Origin: Alicyclobacillus hesperidum
GTDB lineage: Bacteria; Bacillota; Bacilli; Alicyclobacillales; Alicyclobacillaceae
Assembly (NCBI RefSeq): GCF_900107035.1
Contig: NZ_FNOJ01000015.1
Span: 1 to 64,000, forward strand
Reading direction: 5' to 3'
Length of the DNA: 64,000 nt
The position numbers and the translations under genes are program-made. A model generated the notes under the pieces. It was not told where the DNA came from. It saw nothing but the letters and a program-made list of their open reading frames with translations, and ran no database searches. Positions 24,863-38,422 of this stretch are shown in pieces (the first letter of the stretch is position 1; every line of letters begins with the position of its first letter).

Positions 24863-25432
24863 GTGTCAGCGGTGGAAGCCGGAATGAACTTCGAAGATTA
24901 TACCCAGTATGTGAATCGGCTTGCGAAACGTCTGATTCGGTACCGACGGAGTGCCATGATTGATGAGTCAGATCTAGCCTCGGCTGCGCTCACGGCTTTA
25001 TGGCAGAAGCAGATGGAGCGTGGGCTTGTGGATATTACCTATGCTAAGCAAATTATCAAGTATGCGATGCTGGAAGTCTTGCGAAACTCCAACCTTTTAA
25101 AGACGCCGAGATCGGTACCGATGCGACAAGCGATTCAAGCCTATCAGCGGTCTGTGGAGCAATCGGAGGCAGAACACCTGGCCACAAGCGATCCGATTGA
25201 AGAATGGGAACAGGAGGAACTCATTCGTGAAGTCGGGGGAGTCATCGGCTCATTCCTTTACGAAGACCAATTGCTGCTGTCGTTGGTGTTTGAGCAGGGA
25301 CTCAGCTTTCGCGAGGTTGCGGAGGTGCTGGGGAGCACGAAGTCAGTCGTATATCATAGATATCGGGAGCTAATCGCAGAGGTTCGCACAAAATTGGACG
25401 TAGATCAGTTCGGTAGCGCCAAGCATTTGTAA
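24863..25432 (+). CDS. Compact sigma-70-family factor, probably FliA/SigD-related
   Basis: 189 residues. Region 2-like part (DESDLASAALTALWQ, then YAKQIIKYAMLEVLRN) and region 4 helix-turn-helix (LVFEQGLSFREVAEVLGSTK, then YHRYRELIAEVR). The stretch TPRSVPMRQAIQAYQRSV resembles the VPRSVR linker of sigma-28 factors, but the rest of region 3 is shortened. SigD/FliA is normally about 240-255 residues. GTG start after GGAGAG. It sits between yvyF and the anti-sigma gene flgM, where Bacillus has no sigma gene, so FlgM is its likely partner. Identity as the cell's main flagellar sigma is inference. Confidence 0.65.
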   Translation: MSAVEAGMNFEDYTQYVNRLAKRLIRYRRSAMIDESDLASAALTALWQKQMERGLVDITYAKQIIKYAMLEVLRNSNLLKTPRSVPMRQAIQAYQRSVEQSEAEHLATSDPIEEWEQEELIREVGGVIGSFLYEDQLLLSLVFEQGLSFREVAEVLGSTKSVVYHRYRELIAEVRTKLDVDQFGSAKHL

Positions 25433-28519: not shown

Positions 28520-29356
28520 ATGGCTCTTGATTTCAGTGTAAACAACAATGCATCTGCATCCAGCATTCTTTCCAACCTGTCTGCTGTGAACAACGCTTTG
28601 AACACATCGTATACCCAACTGTCCACTGGCAATAAGATCAACAGCGCTGCTGATGATCCGGCTGGATACGCCATTGCGCAACAGATGACGGCTCAGGTCA
28701 ACGCTCTGAACCAATCGGTGCAGAACGCACAAAATGGCATCAGCATGTTGCAGACGGCATCCGGTGCGATGAACCAAATCAACAACATCCTGCAGACGAT
28801 GAACACGTTGGCTGTTGAAGCTGCGAACGGTACCGAAAATAGCACGGACCTCTCGAATTTGAACCAGGAGATGCAAGCTCTCCAAAATCAGATTAACAAC
28901 ATCACGTCGCAGACGAAGTTTAATACGATGACTTTGCTCGATGGTTCACTGGCAACTAACGGTGTGACATTCCAGATTAACACTGACGGTACAAGCAATT
29001 CGGAACTGAGCATTACCATTGCCTCCGTCTCTGTTGGTGCATTGTTCGGGGGAACCATCAATATTACGTCGCAATCACTGGCTCAACAGGCCATCACTTC
29101 GATTCAAAATGCGATTACCAGCTTGTCCGCTTATCAGGCGAATGTCGGTGCTGTGGAAGACCAATTGAATTACACCGTGTCGAATTTGCAAAACACGGCA
29201 GAAAACCTGCAAAACGCTCAGTCCACCATCACCAACACCGATATGGCGCAGGCATATACGCAATTCAGCCAACAGCAAGTGCTTCAGCAGGTCGGTTTGG
29301 CGATGCTCTCGCAAGCGGATCAGCAGCCCGATGCAATTCTCAAGCTGTTGCAATAA
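28520..29356 (+). CDS. hag: Flagellin
   Basis: 278 residues, similar in length to Bacillus Hag. N-terminal D0/D1 (residues 1-125: LSTGNKINSAADDPAGYAI, LQTASGAMNQINNIL) and C-terminal D1/D0 (about 185-278: NTDMAQAYTQFSQQQVLQQV) are complete. The short centre (about 130-185) is Ser/Thr/Asn-rich, for example TDGTSNSELSITIASVSVGA, and offers possible O-glycosylation sites. Strong GAGGAGG site; a terminator follows directly. It is the expected substrate of the GT2-TPR-FliS fusion downstream. Confidence 0.95.
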   Translation: MALDFSVNNNASASSILSNLSAVNNALNTSYTQLSTGNKINSAADDPAGYAIAQQMTAQVNALNQSVQNAQNGISMLQTASGAMNQINNILQTMNTLAVEAANGTENSTDLSNLNQEMQALQNQINNITSQTKFNTMTLLDGSLATNGVTFQINTDGTSNSELSITIASVSVGALFGGTINITSQSLAQQAITSIQNAITSLSAYQANVGAVEDQLNYTVSNLQNTAENLQNAQSTITNTDMAQAYTQFSQQQVLQQVGLAMLSQADQQPDAILKLLQ

Positions 29357-29366
29357 GATTAAGATG

Positions 29367-29402
29367 TTCCTCGGTCGACGCACGTGTCGGCCGAGGAATT
29401 TT
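29367..29402 (+). terminator. Intrinsic terminator of flagellin gene
   Basis: TTCCTCGG and CCGAGGAA outer arms with a GC-rich inner stem and TTTT. It ends only 18 bases before the fliD start and would make fliD expression depend on read-through. Confidence 0.85.
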
Positions 29403-29419
29403 CGAAAGGTGGTATCCTC

Positions 29420-30970
29420 GTGTCCATTTCATCAACCAGTTCAAGTTCCATGGCCAACTTGCTTCAGCAGTTGAATACCTTATCAAACCCAAGTGGTACT
29501 GGCTTGCCTGTATCACAATATGCTCAAGATTTACAACAAATTTTGACTCAAGAACTTGAAACGCCATCCAATAACGAATTGTCGCAATTAAGTTCACAAC
29601 AGACGGCATTAACTGGGTTGCAGACAGCTTTGCAGACCTTTGAACAGGCTACGGAGACGTTATCCAGCTTGCAAAGCTGGAGTACGGTCACTGGGACATC
29701 GAGTGATCCCGGTTCGTTTACAGTCACGGTTCAACCGGGTGCGCAACCGGCCATGTATTCTTTGCAAGTGACATCTTTGGCTAGTAGTCAAACATCCATT
29801 CAAAATCTTTCTTCACAATTCCAGACGAGTGCTGACGGGAGTTCCAACCTTTCTTCGGGTACCATTATTCTCACAAACACTGCGGACAGCAATAAGACGG
29901 CCACGATTAATGTGTCGGCAGGGGAATCTTTGAACGATATTGCAGCGGCCGTCAACCAACAGACGGCGAACACAGGTGTACAGGCTTCTGTATTAACGAA
30001 CGGGCAAAATCAATACTTTTTGTCGCTTTCATCGGTCAATACGGGAACGGCAAACGGATTTACCATCAGTGGAAGCATAATCGGCAGCGGAACTGGACAA
30101 ATCCAGTTCGCGACCACAAATGCCACCGATGCTTCTATCACGCTTGATGGGCAGACGATGACTTCGTCAACAAATACGTTCCAAAATTACATTCCGAACG
30201 TGACGATACAAGTATCACAGACCATGGCGAGTGCTGGAACCTTAACATTATCTACGGATACAAGCGGGGCAGAAAAGGCAGTACAGACATGGATGACAGC
30301 GTATAACACATTGATAGACACGATTAACAAAGACACTGCGTACACCCCGCCTTCGTCAGGGAGTTCGTCGACGCAGGGAACCGCAGGGCCATTGTTTGGC
30401 GATCCGCTAGCCATGGATTTGCTACGCCAATTACCGGCGGCTGTGAGCGCGTCCATAACGACATCTAGCTCAGCAATCAATTCTTTGGCGTCCATCGGTA
30501 TTGTTATTGATCCATCGAATGGACATTTGGAGTTCCAATCCACGTCAGGCTTTTCAAGTGCAGCGGGAACACTACCTGATGGGCAAGCCATGTTCGAGTC
30601 AGCTCTATCATCGAATCCGAGTGCGGTGCAACAACTCTTTGGTATTGTCTCCACCACAGCAACCACGGCGATTCCGCAGTCGGGTGTGCTTGGGAATGTA
30701 TACAACTTGATGAATAACCTGTTGATTGGAAATACCAGTGGTACGGGGACAAGTCCAATCGAAGGTGAACTCAACGCCATCTCTGCGCAGCAGTCGAGCA
30801 TACAAAACTACCTGAGTCTCGTTCAACAACAGATTACGAATCAGGTGACTAACTACACTAATCAATTGAACCAGTTAAACTCTGTGATGGAACAAGCGCA
30901 AGCCCAAATGAAACAAATTTCTGCGATGTTCGGATCGTCAGCATCGTCCTCCTCAGGTGGGATACTCTAA
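29420..30970 (+). CDS. fliD: Flagellar filament cap (FliD)
   Basis: 516 residues. N-terminal helix with NLLQQLNTLSNPSGTG, an Ala/Ser/Thr-rich middle with the flagellin-hook IN-type repeat (GQTMTSSTNTFQNYIPNVTI), and a C-terminal coiled coil (NQVTNYTNQLNQLNSVMEQA). FliD caps the growing filament and is exported with chaperone FliT. GTG 29420 lies 7 bases after AAAGGTGG; the frame upstream runs through the hag terminator. Stop and next start overlap by 1 base. Confidence 0.92.
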   Translation: MSISSTSSSSMANLLQQLNTLSNPSGTGLPVSQYAQDLQQILTQELETPSNNELSQLSSQQTALTGLQTALQTFEQATETLSSLQSWSTVTGTSSDPGSFTVTVQPGAQPAMYSLQVTSLASSQTSIQNLSSQFQTSADGSSNLSSGTIILTNTADSNKTATINVSAGESLNDIAAAVNQQTANTGVQASVLTNGQNQYFLSLSSVNTGTANGFTISGSIIGSGTGQIQFATTNATDASITLDGQTMTSSTNTFQNYIPNVTIQVSQTMASAGTLTLSTDTSGAEKAVQTWMTAYNTLIDTINKDTAYTPPSSGSSSTQGTAGPLFGDPLAMDLLRQLPAAVSASITTSSSAINSLASIGIVIDPSNGHLEFQSTSGFSSAAGTLPDGQAMFESALSSNPSAVQQLFGIVSTTATTAIPQSGVLGNVYNLMNNLLIGNTSGTGTSPIEGELNAISAQQSSIQNYLSLVQQQITNQVTNYTNQLNQLNSVMEQAQAQMKQISAMFGSSASSSSGGIL

Positions 30971-31326
30971 TGTCCGCATCTCTGCAACTGCCTGGTGACG
31001 AATTGGAGCAGCGGATATGCACATTGGGACAACTGGCAATTCAACTATTGGAGGAGCACCGGTTTCAAGAAGCTGCGGCAGTCATGATGAATCGAGGAAA
31101 TGCGCTTGTGGGATGGTTGAGTGCCGAATCGCGGGACAGAACTGAAGCAGTGTTCCAAAAGATCAAAGACCAAACAAATCAAATTGTTGCGCTAGCGACG
31201 GAGCATCACGCGGAAGTTTCGAAGGCGGTGTTCGCCCTGCTCGACGCCAGTCCTGCGTTGAAGGCATACGCAAAGTCACGGTGCATGTCGTCTACACATT
31301 GGAAAGATGAAGAGGATAGGAGATAA
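30970..31326 (+). CDS. FliT-like flagellar export chaperone
   Basis: 118 residues, helical, with no clear motif. Position directly after fliD, size and helical content match FliT, the FliD chaperone, but sequence alone does not prove it. AGGTGGG upstream; starts on the last base of the fliD stop and ends 2 bases before the fusion gene, so all three are probably translationally coupled. Confidence 0.5.
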   Translation: MSASLQLPGDELEQRICTLGQLAIQLLEEHRFQEAAAVMMNRGNALVGWLSAESRDRTEAVFQKIKDQTNQIVALATEHHAEVSKAVFALLDASPALKAYAKSRCMSSTHWKDEEDRR

Positions 31327-31328
31327 GC

Positions 31329-33599
31329 ATGTTACTATCAGCGTGCCTCATCACCAAGGATGAGGAATTGACTTTACCTAGATGCCTGGAATCGCTTAAA
31401 GGCGTTGTTGACGAAATCATTGTCGTGGATACCGGATCGAAGGATAAAACGGTTGAAATTGCACGCAGTCAGGGGGCAAGGGTATACCACCACGACTGGG
31501 ATGGCGATTTTGCTAAGGCTCGCAATGCCTCGCTGGATCGTGCATCTGGTGAGTACATACTGGTAATTGATGCTGATGAATATTTAGATCCTAATGACAG
31601 GCGACACATTCGCTCGAAACTTCTGCAGTCGCGAGCCGATGGTTACTTGGTTGGTATTGTGAATTACATGGGTAATTTGGCAAGGTATCACACCTCTTCT
31701 CCTGTTCAGGTACTCCGAGTTTTCAAAAATGGGTATCGATACTCGGGTTCCATTCATGAACAGGTATTACCCGCAGTGATCGAGAGTGGCGGGCGTATCG
31801 AAACACTAGACTTGCGGGTACACCATTTGGGATATCTCTATGAATTTGTTACATACAAAGCGAAACCAGCGCGGAATATGGAGCTTTTGCAAAAAGAACT
31901 GGACGAAGACCCGGATAACTTGTTTCATATCTCCAATATGATGGCTGAATACATGCGTGTGCAGATGTATGCCAAAGCTGCTGACCTTGGAAAACGAGGA
32001 TTTGACGTTTTCAAAAAAAATCCACATCAAGCGACGCACTTGTTGGCGCGATTGCTGAGAATGCTGGTGGTTGCGCTCGCGATGATTGGTGAATCGGATG
32101 AGGCCATCAAGTATGCTGAGCGGGGTGAAAATATATTTCCCAATCTCCCCGATATTCGCATGGATCACGCACATGCACTCATTCAACAAGGGCGGTTTGA
32201 TGAAGCTATACCTGTTTTGCTTCAGTGTAGAAAATTGGGTGACGTGAAAAATCCTTTGATTGATACAGTGCCTGGCTTAGGTAGTTTTCTTGCTGCAGCG
32301 GAATTGGGAAAAATCTGGCTTTTTTTGGGGGGCTTGCAGAAGGCTGCTGAATGGTACTTGACGAGTTTTCAAGAAAATCCGCGTCAAGAGAATGTTGTTG
32401 GATACTTGGTTTATCTGCTGCCAATTCAACACGAAGCTATCAGACAACAACTCTATGAGGTGTCCAAGCATGACCCGTTGGTTTTTGCGCATTTTGTGGA
32501 GGCATGTGCTGTGTCTCGGGTCGAAGGTTGGCAACAATGGATTTCACAGATTCCGTGCGGCCCGTTGACAGAAGCCACAATTGAAAGACTGAATTGGATT
32601 CAAGTCATGCAGGATTTCCCTGATGAGCTTGAGGGTTATACGCATGCACATGGCAGTGCTCAAAACCAGTTATTGTTCGGCTTGCATCGCTTAGAGTATG
32701 GTGACGTCGAAGGTGCAAGACAAGCTCTTGCTGAAGCGGGGGCACGTGGGGAATCAGTTCTTGCTTGGTTGGATAGTAAAGATCGGGACATTCAACTCTC
32801 TGGCATTGCCAGTGAGCTCATGCTTCTCCAAGCACGGAGGCTGCTAGTTACCTGGTTGCCGCATGCAGCCGACAGGCACACTCTGCTGCCTATCGTACTT
32901 GCCAGCCCATTGCAAGATCTGCTTGTGGAGGCGGAATGGATAGGAGACAGCGGCTGGGAGTGCGAGTTTCGTTCTCATCGCGCCTTTCAGCGCGGAAATA
33001 TAAAGGAAAGTATAGCTTGGTTGGAGAAAGCCATGCAGTATTCACCCAGTGTACGCCGTGTCGTGATCGAAGCTGACATTGCGCTGGCACACGGGAATGT
33101 GGAGCTTGCACGTGCTGTGGTAGAGCAAGGTCAAGCCATCTTCTCGGCATCCGAACTACTCAAACGCGTTGCAAACAATTTAGGAATCAGCCAACGTCGT
33201 GTCAGATTAGCAGATGAATTGTTGGAATGGAATAAAGGGGATGAAGGCATGAATCCACATCGTGCATATCAGTCGTCTGCACTGACCATGCCTTTGCAGG
33301 TCAAGATTGTGAAACTTCATGAACGAGCCCTTGAGTGCGTCGAGCAGATCCGTATTCTCCATGAGCAAGGGGAGATTATGGAGGCTCGTAAATATATTCA
33401 ATATGTACAAGACATTATTACGTTTCTCAGAAGTAGCACAGATACCTCGACAGAGGCAGGAAAAGCGGCTGACGCCTCGTACGCGTTTTATTACAGCATG
33501 TTGGTAAAATGGTTTTTACAACCCAACTTGATTGTAGAACAATACCAAACCATGAAGGAATTTTGGACTTCATGGACGGAAACATGGAAGAAGCTTTGA
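31329..33599 (+). CDS. GT2 glycosyltransferase - TPR - FliS fusion (predicted flagellin glycosyltransferase/chaperone)
   Basis: 756 residues in three parts. (1) SunS-like GT2 domain, residues 1 to about 235, with LITKDEELTLPRCLESLKGV, VDTGSKDKT and metal-binding DAD in VLVIDADEYLDP. (2) TPR-like helical repeats, about 180-630. (3) A complete FliS flagellin chaperone, residues 641-756, starting MNPHRAYQSSALTMPLQ and ending EFWTSWTETWKKL, the usual FliS length and ends. FliS holds unexported flagellin; the fusion suggests flagellin is glycosylated while bound to its chaperone. No separate fliS is present in the cluster. AGGAGATAAG precedes the ATG. An in-frame AAAGGGG plus ATG at 33249 may also make free FliS. 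The sugar and acceptor residues are unknown. Confidence 0.88.
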   Translation: MLLSACLITKDEELTLPRCLESLKGVVDEIIVVDTGSKDKTVEIARSQGARVYHHDWDGDFAKARNASLDRASGEYILVIDADEYLDPNDRRHIRSKLLQSRADGYLVGIVNYMGNLARYHTSSPVQVLRVFKNGYRYSGSIHEQVLPAVIESGGRIETLDLRVHHLGYLYEFVTYKAKPARNMELLQKELDEDPDNLFHISNMMAEYMRVQMYAKAADLGKRGFDVFKKNPHQATHLLARLLRMLVVALAMIGESDEAIKYAERGENIFPNLPDIRMDHAHALIQQGRFDEAIPVLLQCRKLGDVKNPLIDTVPGLGSFLAAAELGKIWLFLGGLQKAAEWYLTSFQENPRQENVVGYLVYLLPIQHEAIRQQLYEVSKHDPLVFAHFVEACAVSRVEGWQQWISQIPCGPLTEATIERLNWIQVMQDFPDELEGYTHAHGSAQNQLLFGLHRLEYGDVEGARQALAEAGARGESVLAWLDSKDRDIQLSGIASELMLLQARRLLVTWLPHAADRHTLLPIVLASPLQDLLVEAEWIGDSGWECEFRSHRAFQRGNIKESIAWLEKAMQYSPSVRRVVIEADIALAHGNVELARAVVEQGQAIFSASELLKRVANNLGISQRRVRLADELLEWNKGDEGMNPHRAYQSSALTMPLQVKIVKLHERALECVEQIRILHEQGEIMEARKYIQYVQDIITFLRSSTDTSTEAGKAADASYAFYYSMLVKWFLQPNLIVEQYQTMKEFWTSWTETWKKL
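33234..33251 (+). promoter_or_regulatory. fliS: Candidate internal ribosome site and start for free FliS
   Basis: AAAGGGG ends 8 bases before an in-frame ATG at 33249. That ATG is codon 641 of the fusion and the exact first residue of the FliS domain (MNPHRAYQ). Translation from here would give a 116-residue stand-alone FliS. Confidence 0.55.
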
Positions 33600-33709: not shown

Positions 33710-35425
33710 TTACACAAAGGGATTGTCATTAGCGAGACGTGAGGCAAATACCAATGCATCAATCCCTCCGGGCATCTTACCGCTCGTTATTGTCCGGAAT
33801 CCCACTTCGGAAAGAAGCAATTGCAAAAGCTCTGTGGGATAGGGACGAGAATTAAACGGCTTTGTCCAAAATTGCTTTGTGATGACCTGCGTGTTATCGC
33901 AATCTGGCGTTACGATAAAAATTCGCCCTCTATAGCTCATGATTTCAAAAAGGGCCAGAAGGAGTTTAGCGGCGTCACTAGGCTGGAACATCTCTATCGC
34001 ATGCCTAATGAACACCGTGTCGTAGGTTTTATGGTATAGCCGCTCGTCTGCCAGCAGGTTAAACACATCACCGTCCCTGTCTTGGACGCGAGATAGCTCA
34101 AAATGAGTTACACATGCTCCTTTCATTTGCATATATTTCATCCCATCTATAGTTTTCGGTCCGATATCCAATATCGCGTCGCCTTCGTGCAAGCCGTGAG
34201 AGAGGATGGCCGCGTAGGCTTCGCTGGACGTCACATGGGCATTGGTACGCTCATTCACTCCTCGCAGGATAGAGAAAGCTTTGAGCTCAACGGGTGTGTG
34301 AGTAATCGGTTTTTGAATAGCTTTTTCTTGCAATATTTTAATTCGGTTTACAACAATCTCTCCAATCGCCTCCCATGAATATTGTTGCGCATGCCGCGCA
34401 GCTTTATCGCACACAGCAGTGTGATTCTTTCGTTCCGAAAAGGCTTTTATCATGGTGTCCACAAGGTGATCCATATCAACATCAATCATTTCTGCGGGTA
34501 GTGCGAGTTGCATATCAGATGGCATGTCCATGGTACTTAACTGAGATTTCACACGATAGCTATTTTCCTCTGTCGTAAATTCCGTGGCAGGGCCCATAGA
34601 AGGAATTATCGCTGGTACTCCGCACGCCATGGCTTCGAGGATAGGTAATCCAAATCCCTCAGCTCGATACGGGTGAACAAGACAGTTGCTCGCGCGGTAC
34701 AGGGCCCCCATTTCAGCGGGGGTTAAATCCCAATCCATATAAAGTATTTCTGGAGATTCTGGGTCAAGTGATGCTGCTAAAATCTGCTCGTGGTACGTTT
34801 GGCCTGCGTAATAGCTTGTTCGTCCAAAATCCTTAACAACCAGGCACACATCGTCGGATCGCCTGAATGCTCTGCGATATGCTTCAAGCACTTTGTCTAT
34901 CCCTTTGCGGTGAATAGTACCTCCTACAAACAGAAACACAAATGACTTTGTCGTTTTCAGTGCATAGCGAGGTCCGTTCACTTGATACACACTCGTATCG
35001 ATACCGAGAGGAAATGTAAAAATTTTATCCTCGTCGATCCCGGATTTGATGTAGCCCTGTCTGGTGTAATTGCTGTTTACCCAGACTTCATCAACTGATG
35101 TCTGAATGAACGGTACCCATTTTGCAGGTACAGGTCCGTATTCCCATGGTTGGAATAGAATTTGAATTGGCACGTCAGAGGGGCGAAGCGTTGGAGGCCA
35201 TTGCTGGCGAATATGAACTAGAGGGCGTTCAACACCCGCGTCATAGCAATTACGAATGTTAGCTGCATCGGAGAACCAATAATCTGGTATTGAGTCCTTT
35301 TCTGTGGGGGTAATTTTAAGATGAACTCCATGCCGAAGCAGTTCTCGGCACAAGTATCGATTGACCAGTGCCAAGCTACTATTAACCAGTTGAGGGCCTT
35401 CCCATTCGACCTTCAATAATGTCAT
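33710..35425 (-). CDS. GT4 glycosyltransferase fused to a methyltransferase-like domain
   Basis: 571 residues. Residues 1 to about 370 form a GT4 (GT-B) transferase: VNSNYTRQGYIKSGI, FVGGTIHRKGIDKVLEAY and the nucleotide-sugar motif EGFGLPILEAMACGVPAI. Residues about 400-571 resemble a class I SAM methyltransferase (ILDIGPKTIDG as motif I, then TYDTVFIRHAIEMFQ), but motif I is atypical, so activity is uncertain. ATGA overlap with the preceding GT4 gene and AAAGGAG upstream. Last gene of the minus-strand glycan operon. Probably extends and modifies the flagellar glycan (inference). Confidence 0.82.
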   Translation of the reverse strand: MTLLKVEWEGPQLVNSSLALVNRYLCRELLRHGVHLKITPTEKDSIPDYWFSDAANIRNCYDAGVERPLVHIRQQWPPTLRPSDVPIQILFQPWEYGPVPAKWVPFIQTSVDEVWVNSNYTRQGYIKSGIDEDKIFTFPLGIDTSVYQVNGPRYALKTTKSFVFLFVGGTIHRKGIDKVLEAYRRAFRRSDDVCLVVKDFGRTSYYAGQTYHEQILAASLDPESPEILYMDWDLTPAEMGALYRASNCLVHPYRAEGFGLPILEAMACGVPAIIPSMGPATEFTTEENSYRVKSQLSTMDMPSDMQLALPAEMIDVDMDHLVDTMIKAFSERKNHTAVCDKAARHAQQYSWEAIGEIVVNRIKILQEKAIQKPITHTPVELKAFSILRGVNERTNAHVTSSEAYAAILSHGLHEGDAILDIGPKTIDGMKYMQMKGACVTHFELSRVQDRDGDVFNLLADERLYHKTYDTVFIRHAIEMFQPSDAAKLLLALFEIMSYRGRIFIVTPDCDNTQVITKQFWTKPFNSRPYPTELLQLLLSEVGFRTITSGKMPGGIDALVFASRLANDNPFV

Positions 35426-36528
35426 TGTTCGGTGACTCCTTTCTCGATACGAGCACTCAATGCATCTAGTCGGTCATGGATCCTTGCTTCAATTACGGAT
35501 TCATTGAAATGTACTAATAAGTCGTGTCGAGCCCTTTGACCGCGTATCATAGCTTCCGTTGGAAGCTCATAAATTTGTCGTAAACGTTGTTTGAGAACCG
35601 ATATGGATGGATAAGCCCATAAGTGTCCATTAAACACGGAGAACTCACTTTTCGCAGGTCCAAGTGCGGATGGGATCAGATAAGAGTTTGTCTCATTCAT
35701 AAAATCTTTTTGACCTCCCCAGTCAGTTGCAACTGTGGGCAAGCCCATCGCCATGGCTTCAAAAAGAGGCCGACCCCATCCCTCCCCATGTGTTGGAAGG
35801 ACGAAGGCGTTTGCGGCGCGATACAAAGCCGCAATTTCGTGAATTTGTAAGGAACGATTCAAAACATACACAGGAGGTGGATCGTCCCTCTGGAACAGCT
35901 CCATACATTTTGTCAACTCGCTGACGGGATCGCGATGCCTGGTTAAATCGTACGTCTTCACTACAAGTGCCACGTTATCCCTGGCTGTAAATTCCTCCAT
36001 GTAAGCTTGCAAAAGTTCGCGAAAACCTTTACGAACCTGCCAGTCAAAGATGGAGAGGAAGACAAACCTGCCGCCGGTTGGGAGGGGCCACGCGTCACCC
36101 TCCGGGTCGAAAATGTGAAAATCAATCGTTTCGGGTATGACATAAATCGGGGCAGTGACACCTGCATCCCTAAATACACCCGCATTAAAGGTGCTAGGAA
36201 CCCAAATTTCGTCGAATGCATTTAATCGCGTAACCCATTCTTTGGGTAATCGATCGGTTTCAAATGTGGTGCGTGCTATATTGATTCGAAAGTCATCTCT
36301 TGCTTCAATTGCGCTACACATGAGGTTGCATATATAAACGTCATTTGTTTCTAAATGTGTTGATTCAAATAACCTAAGTGTAGGATTAGGGTTATGTCCA
36401 GAAAGGCGATTTCGGATTTGCACTTTATGCTCACCGTTGCGTATAGCGGATAAAATTCGTAGGTTATCTTCAGCGAAACCTGACCCGTTAGTGAAAAGGC
36501 CATCAAGCAAGATGTTTAAAGACCGCAT
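35422..36528 (-). CDS. GT4-family glycosyltransferase
   Basis: About 368 residues. GT-B fold with VPSTFNAGVFRDAGVTAPIY, FLSIFDWQVRKGFRELLQAY and the donor-binding motif EGWGRPLFEAMAMGLPTVAT. The start at ATG 36528 has GAGAAGG about 11 bases upstream; the TTG at 36591 would overlap the fkbM stop and has no good site. Overlaps the next gene by 4 bases. The donor sugar is unknown; the neighbourhood suggests work on a methylated glycan. Confidence 0.85.
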   Translation of the reverse strand: MRSLNILLDGLFTNGSGFAEDNLRILSAIRNGEHKVQIRNRLSGHNPNPTLRLFESTHLETNDVYICNLMCSAIEARDDFRINIARTTFETDRLPKEWVTRLNAFDEIWVPSTFNAGVFRDAGVTAPIYVIPETIDFHIFDPEGDAWPLPTGGRFVFLSIFDWQVRKGFRELLQAYMEEFTARDNVALVVKTYDLTRHRDPVSELTKCMELFQRDDPPPVYVLNRSLQIHEIAALYRAANAFVLPTHGEGWGRPLFEAMAMGLPTVATDWGGQKDFMNETNSYLIPSALGPAKSEFSVFNGHLWAYPSISVLKQRLRQIYELPTEAMIRGQRARHDLLVHFNESVIEARIHDRLDALSARIEKGVTEQ

Positions 36529-36587
36529 ATAATTGTCAACCTTCTCAAGTAAGACGTTATAAAGTAGAAAATATAATCTCAAATAGT

Positions 36588-37394
36588 TCAAGCATAAGGA
36601 AACATCATCACGATATTTTCGACAATACTATTTTGTTGCAGTAAATCGACGATATCACAGATGATGGGTTGGCCTTCATTGTTTAAAATATGAAAGGTAA
36701 CCTTGTATACGTCTCGATAGTACAAGAGTTTATCTAACAACGCACGCCACTGATCACCCATGCGCATCTTATTAAATTCAAAAACAACTTGAGTCACCTT
36801 TCTGTTATGCAGTAGATTTGTCATGCCGTTAAGCACGTGGAGTTCTGCACCCTCAACGTCTATTTTTATCAGGTCTATTTTCTCGAAGGAATGTAAATAG
36901 TTATCTAGGGGCTCGCATGGGATTTTGATTTGCGTCACTTCTTCATCGTGTCTGAAATACGAAAAATATTGTTCATCCGGTTCAAGCACTGATGAATTTC
37001 CCGTAAACTTATTAGTTTGGAATAGCGACACTTCCCCGACATGATCATGAACTGCCGCATTAACTACGGTAGTGTGCTCGTTGGTATAGTTAATAAAAAT
37101 GTTATCCCAAAGAAAATTAAAAATTCCGGGCGAGGGCTCGTAAGCAACTACTCGTCCAGGCCTTTGGACTAATAGACCCATCAAAACCGTGAAGTATCCG
37201 ATATTTGCACCTATATCAAAGACGACATTACCAGGTTTTACAGTGTTAATCAGATATTTTGTCAGTTGAATTTCAAAAACACCGTGAGTAGCGAGAACTG
37301 GCATAATAGATAAGTCGAATCCTGGAGCCAGAAGTCGCCCGCCCCAAACGGTGGATGACAGGACTTTACCATTTCCAACATAGACAGAATTCAT
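36588..37394 (-). CDS. FkbM-family methyltransferase
   Basis: 268 residues. Class I SAM methyltransferase with motif I VFDIGANIGYFTVLMG, the acidic end of strand 2 in VVAYEPSPG and the FkbM-family motif IDLIKIDVEGAELHVLNG. Family members O-methylate sugars or polyketides. Positioned between a second methyltransferase gene (161-base gap) and two GT4 genes, so a glycan sugar is the likely substrate. The coding sequence is AT-richer than the flanking housekeeping genes. Confidence 0.87.
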   Translation of the reverse strand: MNSVYVGNGKVLSSTVWGGRLLAPGFDLSIMPVLATHGVFEIQLTKYLINTVKPGNVVFDIGANIGYFTVLMGLLVQRPGRVVAYEPSPGIFNFLWDNIFINYTNEHTTVVNAAVHDHVGEVSLFQTNKFTGNSSVLEPDEQYFSYFRHDEEVTQIKIPCEPLDNYLHSFEKIDLIKIDVEGAELHVLNGMTNLLHNRKVTQVVFEFNKMRMGDQWRALLDKLLYYRDVYKVTFHILNNEGQPIICDIVDLLQQNSIVENIVMMFPYA

Positions 37395-37555
37395 AATGAG
37401 TATCTACCTCCATATGAAATGCGATTGAGTAGCTGGCAAAAAAAGTTTTGATTCAAGGCATCGCATCGGGGGTTAGCATCCTTGGCATCCTTGGTATCCA
37501 CAAGACTTATGGGTCAGATTCGCGTGGTAGGTGACCCTCAACAAGTTTTGAATCG

Positions 37556-38422
37556 TTATCGGCGCCTTGCAATTGTAATCAGTTCTTCGTTCAAGGCATA
37601 TACCCAGTTCTCACGCGACTCTTGTAGTGACAATAGATAATTTTCAAATTCGCTAGCGGTCAGTAGTCCATGCTTAATTATCGCTTCTTGGTGGTCACGA
37701 AACTGTTGAATTGCCAATTTGGTGGCCGGCCCTTCGCCAGACACCAAGGAAAATTGAGCTTGCGGCAGTATAAGCGTCCTGATAACCTCGAGCCCGCACT
37801 CGTGCATAATCAAAGGGATTTTACGACCGATGTGACGATCTCCTCCGTTCAAAACCTGCAATTTACAAAATGCCTCTCTGAGTCGGCTAAATGCAGTTGG
37901 GTGTTCCGGATAGGACAGCGATAGCTGATCGTCAATGTCGATGATACATACGAGACCTCCCGGTTTCAGAACCCGGTGAATCTCTTGCATAACGAGCTGA
38001 GGGTTGCGCAGATGTTGAAACACGAAGCGACTTATCACGTAGTCAAACGACCTGTCTTCGTAAGGAAGTTGATACGCGTCACCGACCTGAAAGATGATTC
38101 TGGACTGGGGATGTAGTCCTTGCATATCTTCGATATCGGAGAGCATCTTCTTGGCTGAGTGAATTGACGCTTCGTCGTGATCGAGTGCGTTCAGGGCAAT
38201 TTTCCACGATGCGGCGATCTCGAACGCCAATGCTCCAAACCCAGTTCCTAAATCAAGCACCGTCATATTTTCCTGGATACCTAAAGCGGGGAGTAGCGCC
38301 CGCCGGATGGGAGCCGTGTGCAACGTTTGTTCCAAAAGCCAGCGGTGAGGAATGTTGTTTTGATGTGCGTAGGAAGACCAAGTGGCATCAATGGCTTGAA
38401 ATCGTTCCGCTAGCGGCTTCAA
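37556..38422 (-). CDS. Class I SAM methyltransferase (UbiE/Methyltransf_11 type)
   Basis: 288 residues. Motif I VLDLGTGFGALAFEIA, strand 2 NALDHDEASI, GDAYQLPYEDRSFDYVISRF and post-motif HRVLKPGGLVCIID are all clear. Substrate unknown; small-molecule, lipid or sugar methylation are all possible. First gene of the minus-strand glycan block and divergent from hpf. The C-terminal 100 residues are helical and lack further motifs. Confidence 0.85.
   Translation of the reverse strand: MKPLAERFQAIDATWSSYAHQNNIPHRWLLEQTLHTAPIRRALLPALGIQENMTVLDLGTGFGALAFEIAASWKIALNALDHDEASIHSAKKMLSDIEDMQGLHPQSRIIFQVGDAYQLPYEDRSFDYVISRFVFQHLRNPQLVMQEIHRVLKPGGLVCIIDIDDQLSLSYPEHPTAFSRLREAFCKLQVLNGGDRHIGRKIPLIMHECGLEVIRTLILPQAQFSLVSGEGPATKLAIQQFRDHQEAIIKHGLLTASEFENYLLSLQESRENWVYALNEELITIARRR

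Follow-up and report, generated by a model that had tools for sequence, protein, structure and literature searches.

SunS and ThuS are peptide S-glycosyltransferases that act on bacteriocin peptides. A flagellar enzyme, GmaR of Listeria monocytogenes, is bifunctional, serving as flagellin O-GlcNAc transferase and as MogR antirepressor; it comprises four domains (GT, TPR, linker and antirepressor) and moves GlcNAc onto flagellin, which its TPR is proposed to recognise (PMC9638930). FlmG follows another order, with TPR at residues 1-313 and GT at residues 309-596 (PMC7591256). The timing of flagellin glycosylation relative to chaperone binding has been examined in few Gram-negative species only, and in those the chaperone favours the glycosylated flagellin, as described for FlaJ of Aeromonas (PMC4065374) and FliS of Campylobacter (PMC5466977). 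In Aeromonas caviae glycosylation precedes chaperone binding and also occurs without the chaperone (PMC4065374). A type III export protein, SctQ/SpaO, is made both at full length and as an internally started C-terminal form (PMC13059759; PMC4295842).

Here we describe a gene of Alicyclobacillus hesperidum in which a GmaR-like glycosyltransferase and a FliS chaperone share one reading frame. It lies in the window, by which we mean the whole analysed stretch of 64,000 nucleotides. In the reading that we favour, with a probability of about 0.7, this one gene gives two proteins, a GT-TPR-FliS fusion and free FliS, glycosylation takes place on tethered flagellin, and export is served by FliS.

The fused gene and its parts

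The gene belongs to a flagellar late operon with the order fliD, small gene, fusion, and its locus lies between fliD and hpf/secA. The relevant features of the window are as follows.

28520..29356, + strand: flagellin, 278 aa, the presumed substrate (Pfam; own-genome search)
29384..30970, + strand: fliD, filament cap (Pfam FliD_C/FliD_N)
30970..31326, + strand: small gene at the FliT position, 118 aa (Pfam FliT E 0.066, below cut-off)
31317..31323, + strand: Shine-Dalgarno of the full-length start (taggaga), for ATG 31329 (duplex -10.1 kcal/mol)
31329..33599, + strand: fused gene, GT2 - TPR/helical - FliS, 756 aa (conserved in 20 genomes)
31329..31907, + strand: GT2 domain, residues 1-193, GmaR-like (22ao GmaR 5.8e-36; invariant columns)
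31908..33230, + strand: TPR and other helical repeats, residues 194-634 (Pfam TPR; GmaR 7x9r match; all-helical model)
33231..33272, + strand: low-confidence joint, residues 635-648, probably flexible (pLDDT under 50)
33234..33240, + strand: internal Shine-Dalgarno-like AAAGGGG, 8 nt 5' of the internal ATG (duplex -9.5 kcal/mol)
33249..33599, + strand: nested fliS, residues 641-756 (FliS domain), headed by an internal ATG (start codon 20/20; FliS fold)

Window positions 31329-33599 form a single open frame of 756 aa, running from ATG 31329 to the stop codon at 33597-33599. As no stop lies between GT-TPR and FliS, the upstream start must yield the fused chain, and since this fusion recurs in 20 genomes, near-closed ones among them, it is not a sequencing artefact. 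Pfam placed Glycos_transf_2 at residues 4-126 (3.6e-24), TPR_14/TPR_19 at residues 241-297 and FliS (PF02561) at residues 646-755 (1.4e-7; 32.2 bits, above the gathering cut-off of 26.7), which bears out the original prediction that a GT2 glycosyltransferase, a TPR region and FliS are combined in one protein. In the full-length model (pLDDT 86), a GT domain of alpha/beta type is followed by an extended helical region, the joint at residues 635-648 and a FliS bundle.

The FliS part alone matched solved FliS structures, those of Aquifex among them (1ory, 7.8e-6; 1orj, 9.0e-6; 4iwb, 1.4e-5). An AlphaFold2 model of this part, built from 13 related sequences, had a mean pLDDT of 88.5, and the top 15 matches in a Foldseek search against the PDB were all FliS or flagellar-chaperone entries. 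The best of them was 5maw, the B. subtilis flagellin-FliS complex (TM 0.86/0.89, rmsd 1.4). Structure prediction had been proposed as a check on the assignment of residues 641-756 to FliS and came out in its favour: by the model these residues fold as FliS, with flagellin binding and delivery to FlhA as putative functions. Because the score against the NCBIfam FliS equivalog (TIGR00208) was 22.6 bits, below the cut-off of 53.75, we call this FliS divergent, its functional equivalence being uncertified by score.

By sequence the GT domain is closest to that of GmaR (22ao), with ThuS and SunS next, and SunS/ThuS were the best structural matches of the GT part (VIA, Z 23.6-25.3). The TPR part matches residues 140-369 of GmaR 7x9r (2.6e-7). 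DTGS (34-37), D81 and D83 of DAD (81-83) and HEQ (143-145) are invariant among 24 aligned sequences. The GT motifs pointed out in the original prediction are intact in all relatives, and the nearest characterised relative, GmaR, does glycosylate flagellin. Judged from these similarities, the product is probably a GmaR-type cytoplasmic protein glycosyltransferase, a putative enzyme made of GT2 and a TPR/helical scaffold. Its sugar, assigned like the donor purely from homology, is probably O-GlcNAc-like, and flagellin is the presumed substrate. FlmG, which the original prediction had cited, was ruled out as the nearest one by its TPR-then-GT order as against GT-then-TPR here, and gives way to GmaR. 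Membership in the SunS S-glycosyltransferase family (TIGR04195) was likewise ruled out, at 75 bits versus a curated cut-off of 350. The Maf-type flagellin glycosyltransferase profile PF01973 had no match, a result of little weight as its control matched in archaea only. MogR gave 0 matches in 41 genomes of the family, in a search run without a positive control; as MogR was not found, we carry the role of GmaR over for the enzyme half only.

The host genome (2.86 Mb, 99% complete) contains one FliS match, the fused one, and its only full flagellin is the gene at 28520..29356, the other match being FlgL. The predicted position behind flagellin, fliD and a FliT-like gene stands as regards gene order; the identification of the 118-aa product as FliT is weak, its match lying below the cut-off. 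A related gene is found at the same place in several relatives, in which the flagellar operon context around the fusion is also kept. No FliW was found in the host genome. With no FliW match and a single flagellin, the B. subtilis-type flagellin homeostasis system seems incomplete here.

Other genes near the locus may be of interest. Convergent to the fused gene, positions 33710-38422 of the window (- strand) encode two GT4-type glycosyltransferases, an FkbM methyltransferase and another SAM methyltransferase, which are candidates for extension or capping of a flagellin glycan. In a relative, two GT4 parts are joined in one 1064-aa protein (L060:10163-13357). Window positions 24863-25432, upstream of a flgN-like gene, encode a 189-aa protein with an end that by eye resembles sigma region 4, and this protein is conserved in the order.

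A start codon at the first residue of FliS

The codon of residue 641, FliS residue 1, is the ATG at window position 33249, with AAAGGGG eight bases before it. At the aligned position all 20 fused genes have a start codon (15 ATG, 4 GTG, 1 TTG); the residue varies between M, V and L, and the codon is always start-capable. Across the 747 codon columns, a start codon is universal among the 20 genes at two positions only, the gene start and residue 641; of the inner columns, 46 are confined to M, V, L or I, and among these the next-highest start-codon share was 0.55. The mean energy of the Shine-Dalgarno duplex with the 16S tail was -11.0 kcal/mol at 641, the strongest of the 747 aligned columns, compared with -10.5 kcal/mol for the gene start and an all-column mean of -2.7 (sd 1.7) kcal/mol. 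Met654, conserved in 19 of the 20 genes, has no Shine-Dalgarno (-1.7 kcal/mol). In the window, the internal site is the strongest of the 63 in-frame start codons of the gene and about as strong as the full-length start (-9.5 vs -10.1 kcal/mol).

The peptides that precede the internal start are unrelated between lineages (EGDEG, GGGSG, EEGTT, EGDLE, KKGELF, RLEDFL), and thus the common feature before residue 641 is an RNA signal and not a peptide. Synonymous recoding of the same peptides gave weaker sites on average in 19 of the 20 genes, a comparison that reached P < 0.05 in only 7 of 20 when taken gene by gene. The Shine-Dalgarno at the internal start is weak in one fused gene, G039. Since a start codon stands at FliS residue 1 in 20/20 fused genes, with a Shine-Dalgarno that is strong on average, free FliS is very probably made from inside the fused gene. 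The original prediction had stated that no separate fliS is present, which holds for the gene, with one FliS match in a genome that is 99% complete, and very probably fails for the protein in view of the conserved internal start. It had also taken the chaperone to exist solely as part of the fusion; the start codon and Shine-Dalgarno kept in 20/20 genes speak against that.

Distribution and origin of the fusion

A survey of the family and the order found the GT2-TPR-FliS fusion in 20 genomes of Alicyclobacillus and relatives, spread over two families, so that the search for the same domain order elsewhere, suggested as a check, gave a positive answer. A second FliS was not found in any of these 20 genomes. 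Carriers include A. sacchari, A. tengchongensis, A. sendaiensis and A. mali as well as A. montanus, which the grouping used places in another genus, and A. fastidiosus has GT-TPR and FliS as an unfused pair. A single peptide pattern served to scan the named genomes, and the 12 loci that it picked out were all related.

Many other relatives in the family and order have an ordinary stand-alone FliS. Intermediate arrangements were found as well: GT-TPR and fliS are separate genes with a 4-base overlap in L042 and L043 (GTGA, TTGA), separate adjoining genes in L059, L060, L061, L063 and L064, and separate genes near each other in L066 and L067, and in L062 fliS stands apart from GT-TPR behind a gene fragment at the contig edge. 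In the phylum, GT-TPR homologues are widespread, with 165 of 398 genomes having them, and among the matches listed only that of the window itself extends into FliS. No long-frame FliS from outside the order was found among the FliS matches listed for 399 genomes of the class and 249 of the phylum. In 18 hand-picked genomes, mostly low scorers, FliS frames measured 44-244 aa, apart from two weak sub-cut-off FliS matches in frames of about 1200 aa.

In the GT-TPR tree 20/20 fused genes fall in one clade (98/99) with no unfused gene inside, and the shorter tree built from the TPR end and FliS requires two changes. As the two trees disagree, we leave the number of events at one to two; the possible histories are a single fusion, a fusion together with a fission, or two fusions. 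The starting point would have been an operon with a GT-TPR gene followed by fliS, overlapping in some relatives, whose frames were joined while the start of fliS was kept.

Three further observations concern these loci. Next to the fused or split gene, several relatives have another GT-TPR paralogue, this one lacking FliS, at L052:9816-11735, L059:5507-7420, L060:8199-10124 (directly followed by the double GT4 protein mentioned above) and L061:5508-7439, and these paralogues form their own group in the GT-TPR tree. Several relatives also have a further GT2 gene, short at about 370-390 aa, that either overlaps the fused gene at its end or directly adjoins it there (L074:6534-7709, L081:6546-7694, L076:3394-4509 and L054:9124-10227). 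Moreover, relatives with canonical FliS have a frame of 925-941 aa between flagellin and fliS, at the fliD position of the fused genomes (L044:8510-11293, L045:3754-6579, L046:4689-7499, L047:8206-10989, L049:8634-11411); these frames mostly lack a match to FliD of the window (L044 alone has one, a weak one) and possibly encode an enlarged cap protein.

The history of the clade bears on whether the fusion has a function at all. Free FliS might do all the chaperoning, and the FliS tail of the enzyme would then be harmless read-through after loss of a stop. The strength of the internal start, the independence of glycosylation from the chaperone in A. caviae and the GT-TPR paralogues without FliS beside some relatives (L052, L059, L060, L061) agree with such a neutral fusion. 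The fused clade has nevertheless accumulated about 15 amino-acid changes per column (sum of the GT-TPR tree branch lengths), and its linker, widely diverged in sequence and length, has never regained a stop or a frameshift in the fused genes sampled. By our rough estimate, which concerns genes chosen as fused, a 15-residue linker under free drift should have undergone about a dozen nonsense changes. We therefore regard neutrality as rather unlikely.

Proposed mechanism and comparison with known systems

In the two-product reading that we prefer, the GmaR-type GT2 and TPR/helical scaffold would be linked by a short flexible joint to FliS, and the nested start codon with its own Shine-Dalgarno would provide free FliS from the same mRNA, so that both products accumulate. 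The FliS end of the fusion most likely binds freshly synthesised flagellin at its C-terminal segment, tethering it to the enzyme, whose GT domain would then glycosylate exposed Ser/Thr of flagellin with a sugar that, going by GmaR, is probably O-GlcNAc-like. Modified flagellin would then reach the export gate on FliS, mostly on the abundant free form, which would be needed in amounts comparable to flagellin. Coupling of glycosylation and chaperone is plausible because FliS homologues of Aeromonas and Campylobacter favour glycosylated flagellin, and joining both steps physically would reinforce a coupling that is already there; tethering by FliS is not generally required, since A. caviae glycosylates flagellin without the chaperone. 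Glycosylation of flagellin during its stay on the FliS end of the fusion is plausible. More tentatively, and with slightly less than even odds in our judgement, capture, glycosylation and hand-off from fused to free FliS could act as a built-in check through which only modified flagellin is exported.

The enzyme might instead have another target (FliD, FlgK/FlgL or a non-flagellar protein) or serve mainly as a flagellar regulator of the GmaR-like, MogR-antirepressor type. GmaR is indeed bifunctional, and SunS/ThuS act on bacteriocin peptides; yet the locus between fliD and hpf/secA, the fusion to a flagellin chaperone and the 0 matches to MogR in 41 family genomes, again from a search without positive control, speak against this reading, which we consider improbable. 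That the 756-aa protein does all FliS work, with the internal ATG a remnant of the old fliS start, accords with the absence of a separate fliS gene from every fused genome and with a fusion that is in frame in all carriers, but is quite improbable, as a remnant would not be expected to stay start-capable in 20/20 genes as the residue shifts from M to V/L, nor to keep a Shine-Dalgarno across unrelated peptides, and the nearby conserved Met654 has none.

Enzyme and chaperone stand here in one polypeptide, the chaperone is very probably encoded as a nested gene too, and close relatives have the unfused state. Fused and unfused relatives together offer a natural and genetically simple set for studying how modification and export are coupled, and the carriers, Alicyclobacillus and relatives, are acid- and heat-tolerant bacteria. 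The locus would also illustrate cleanly how two genes, adjacent or overlapping, can become a fusion that keeps the downstream start, with an enzyme-chaperone and a free chaperone as its products. In the literature searched on FliS and glycosyltransferase, a GT2-TPR-FliS protein was not found, in agreement with the original prediction, which knew of no described protein of this exact architecture. Each part comes from a known family, and their joining with a nested chaperone start is, to our knowledge, new.

Like the fusion, GmaR is flagellar and has an N-terminal GT2 of about 190 aa followed by TPR and more helices, the GmaR-like part here being comparable in length to GmaR (about 637-640 aa); in contrast, GmaR has no FliS part, whereas the protein described here ends in a FliS that has a nested start of its own, and MogR was not found. 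SunS/ThuS share GT2 and TPR working on a polypeptide but have bacteriocin peptides as substrates and no FliS, and the score of the fusion for the SunS family is far under the cut-off. FlmG of Caulobacter also combines TPR and GT, and binds and glycosylates flagellin in the cytoplasm (PMC7591256); it differs in its reverse domain order, pseudaminic acid, a separate chaperone FlaF and the lack of a FliS domain. FliS of B. subtilis and Aquifex has the same helical fold as the C-terminus of the fusion (TM 0.86 to 5maw) and the same operon place after fliD, whereas the FliS described here is divergent in sequence, forms the C-terminal domain of an enzyme and very probably exists as a free product besides the enzyme-bound form. 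Finally, SctQ/SpaO of type III secretion likewise draws two products from one gene, with a conserved internal start giving the shorter; the proteins are unrelated, and in the present case the shorter product would be a chaperone, the longer an enzyme fused to a chaperone.
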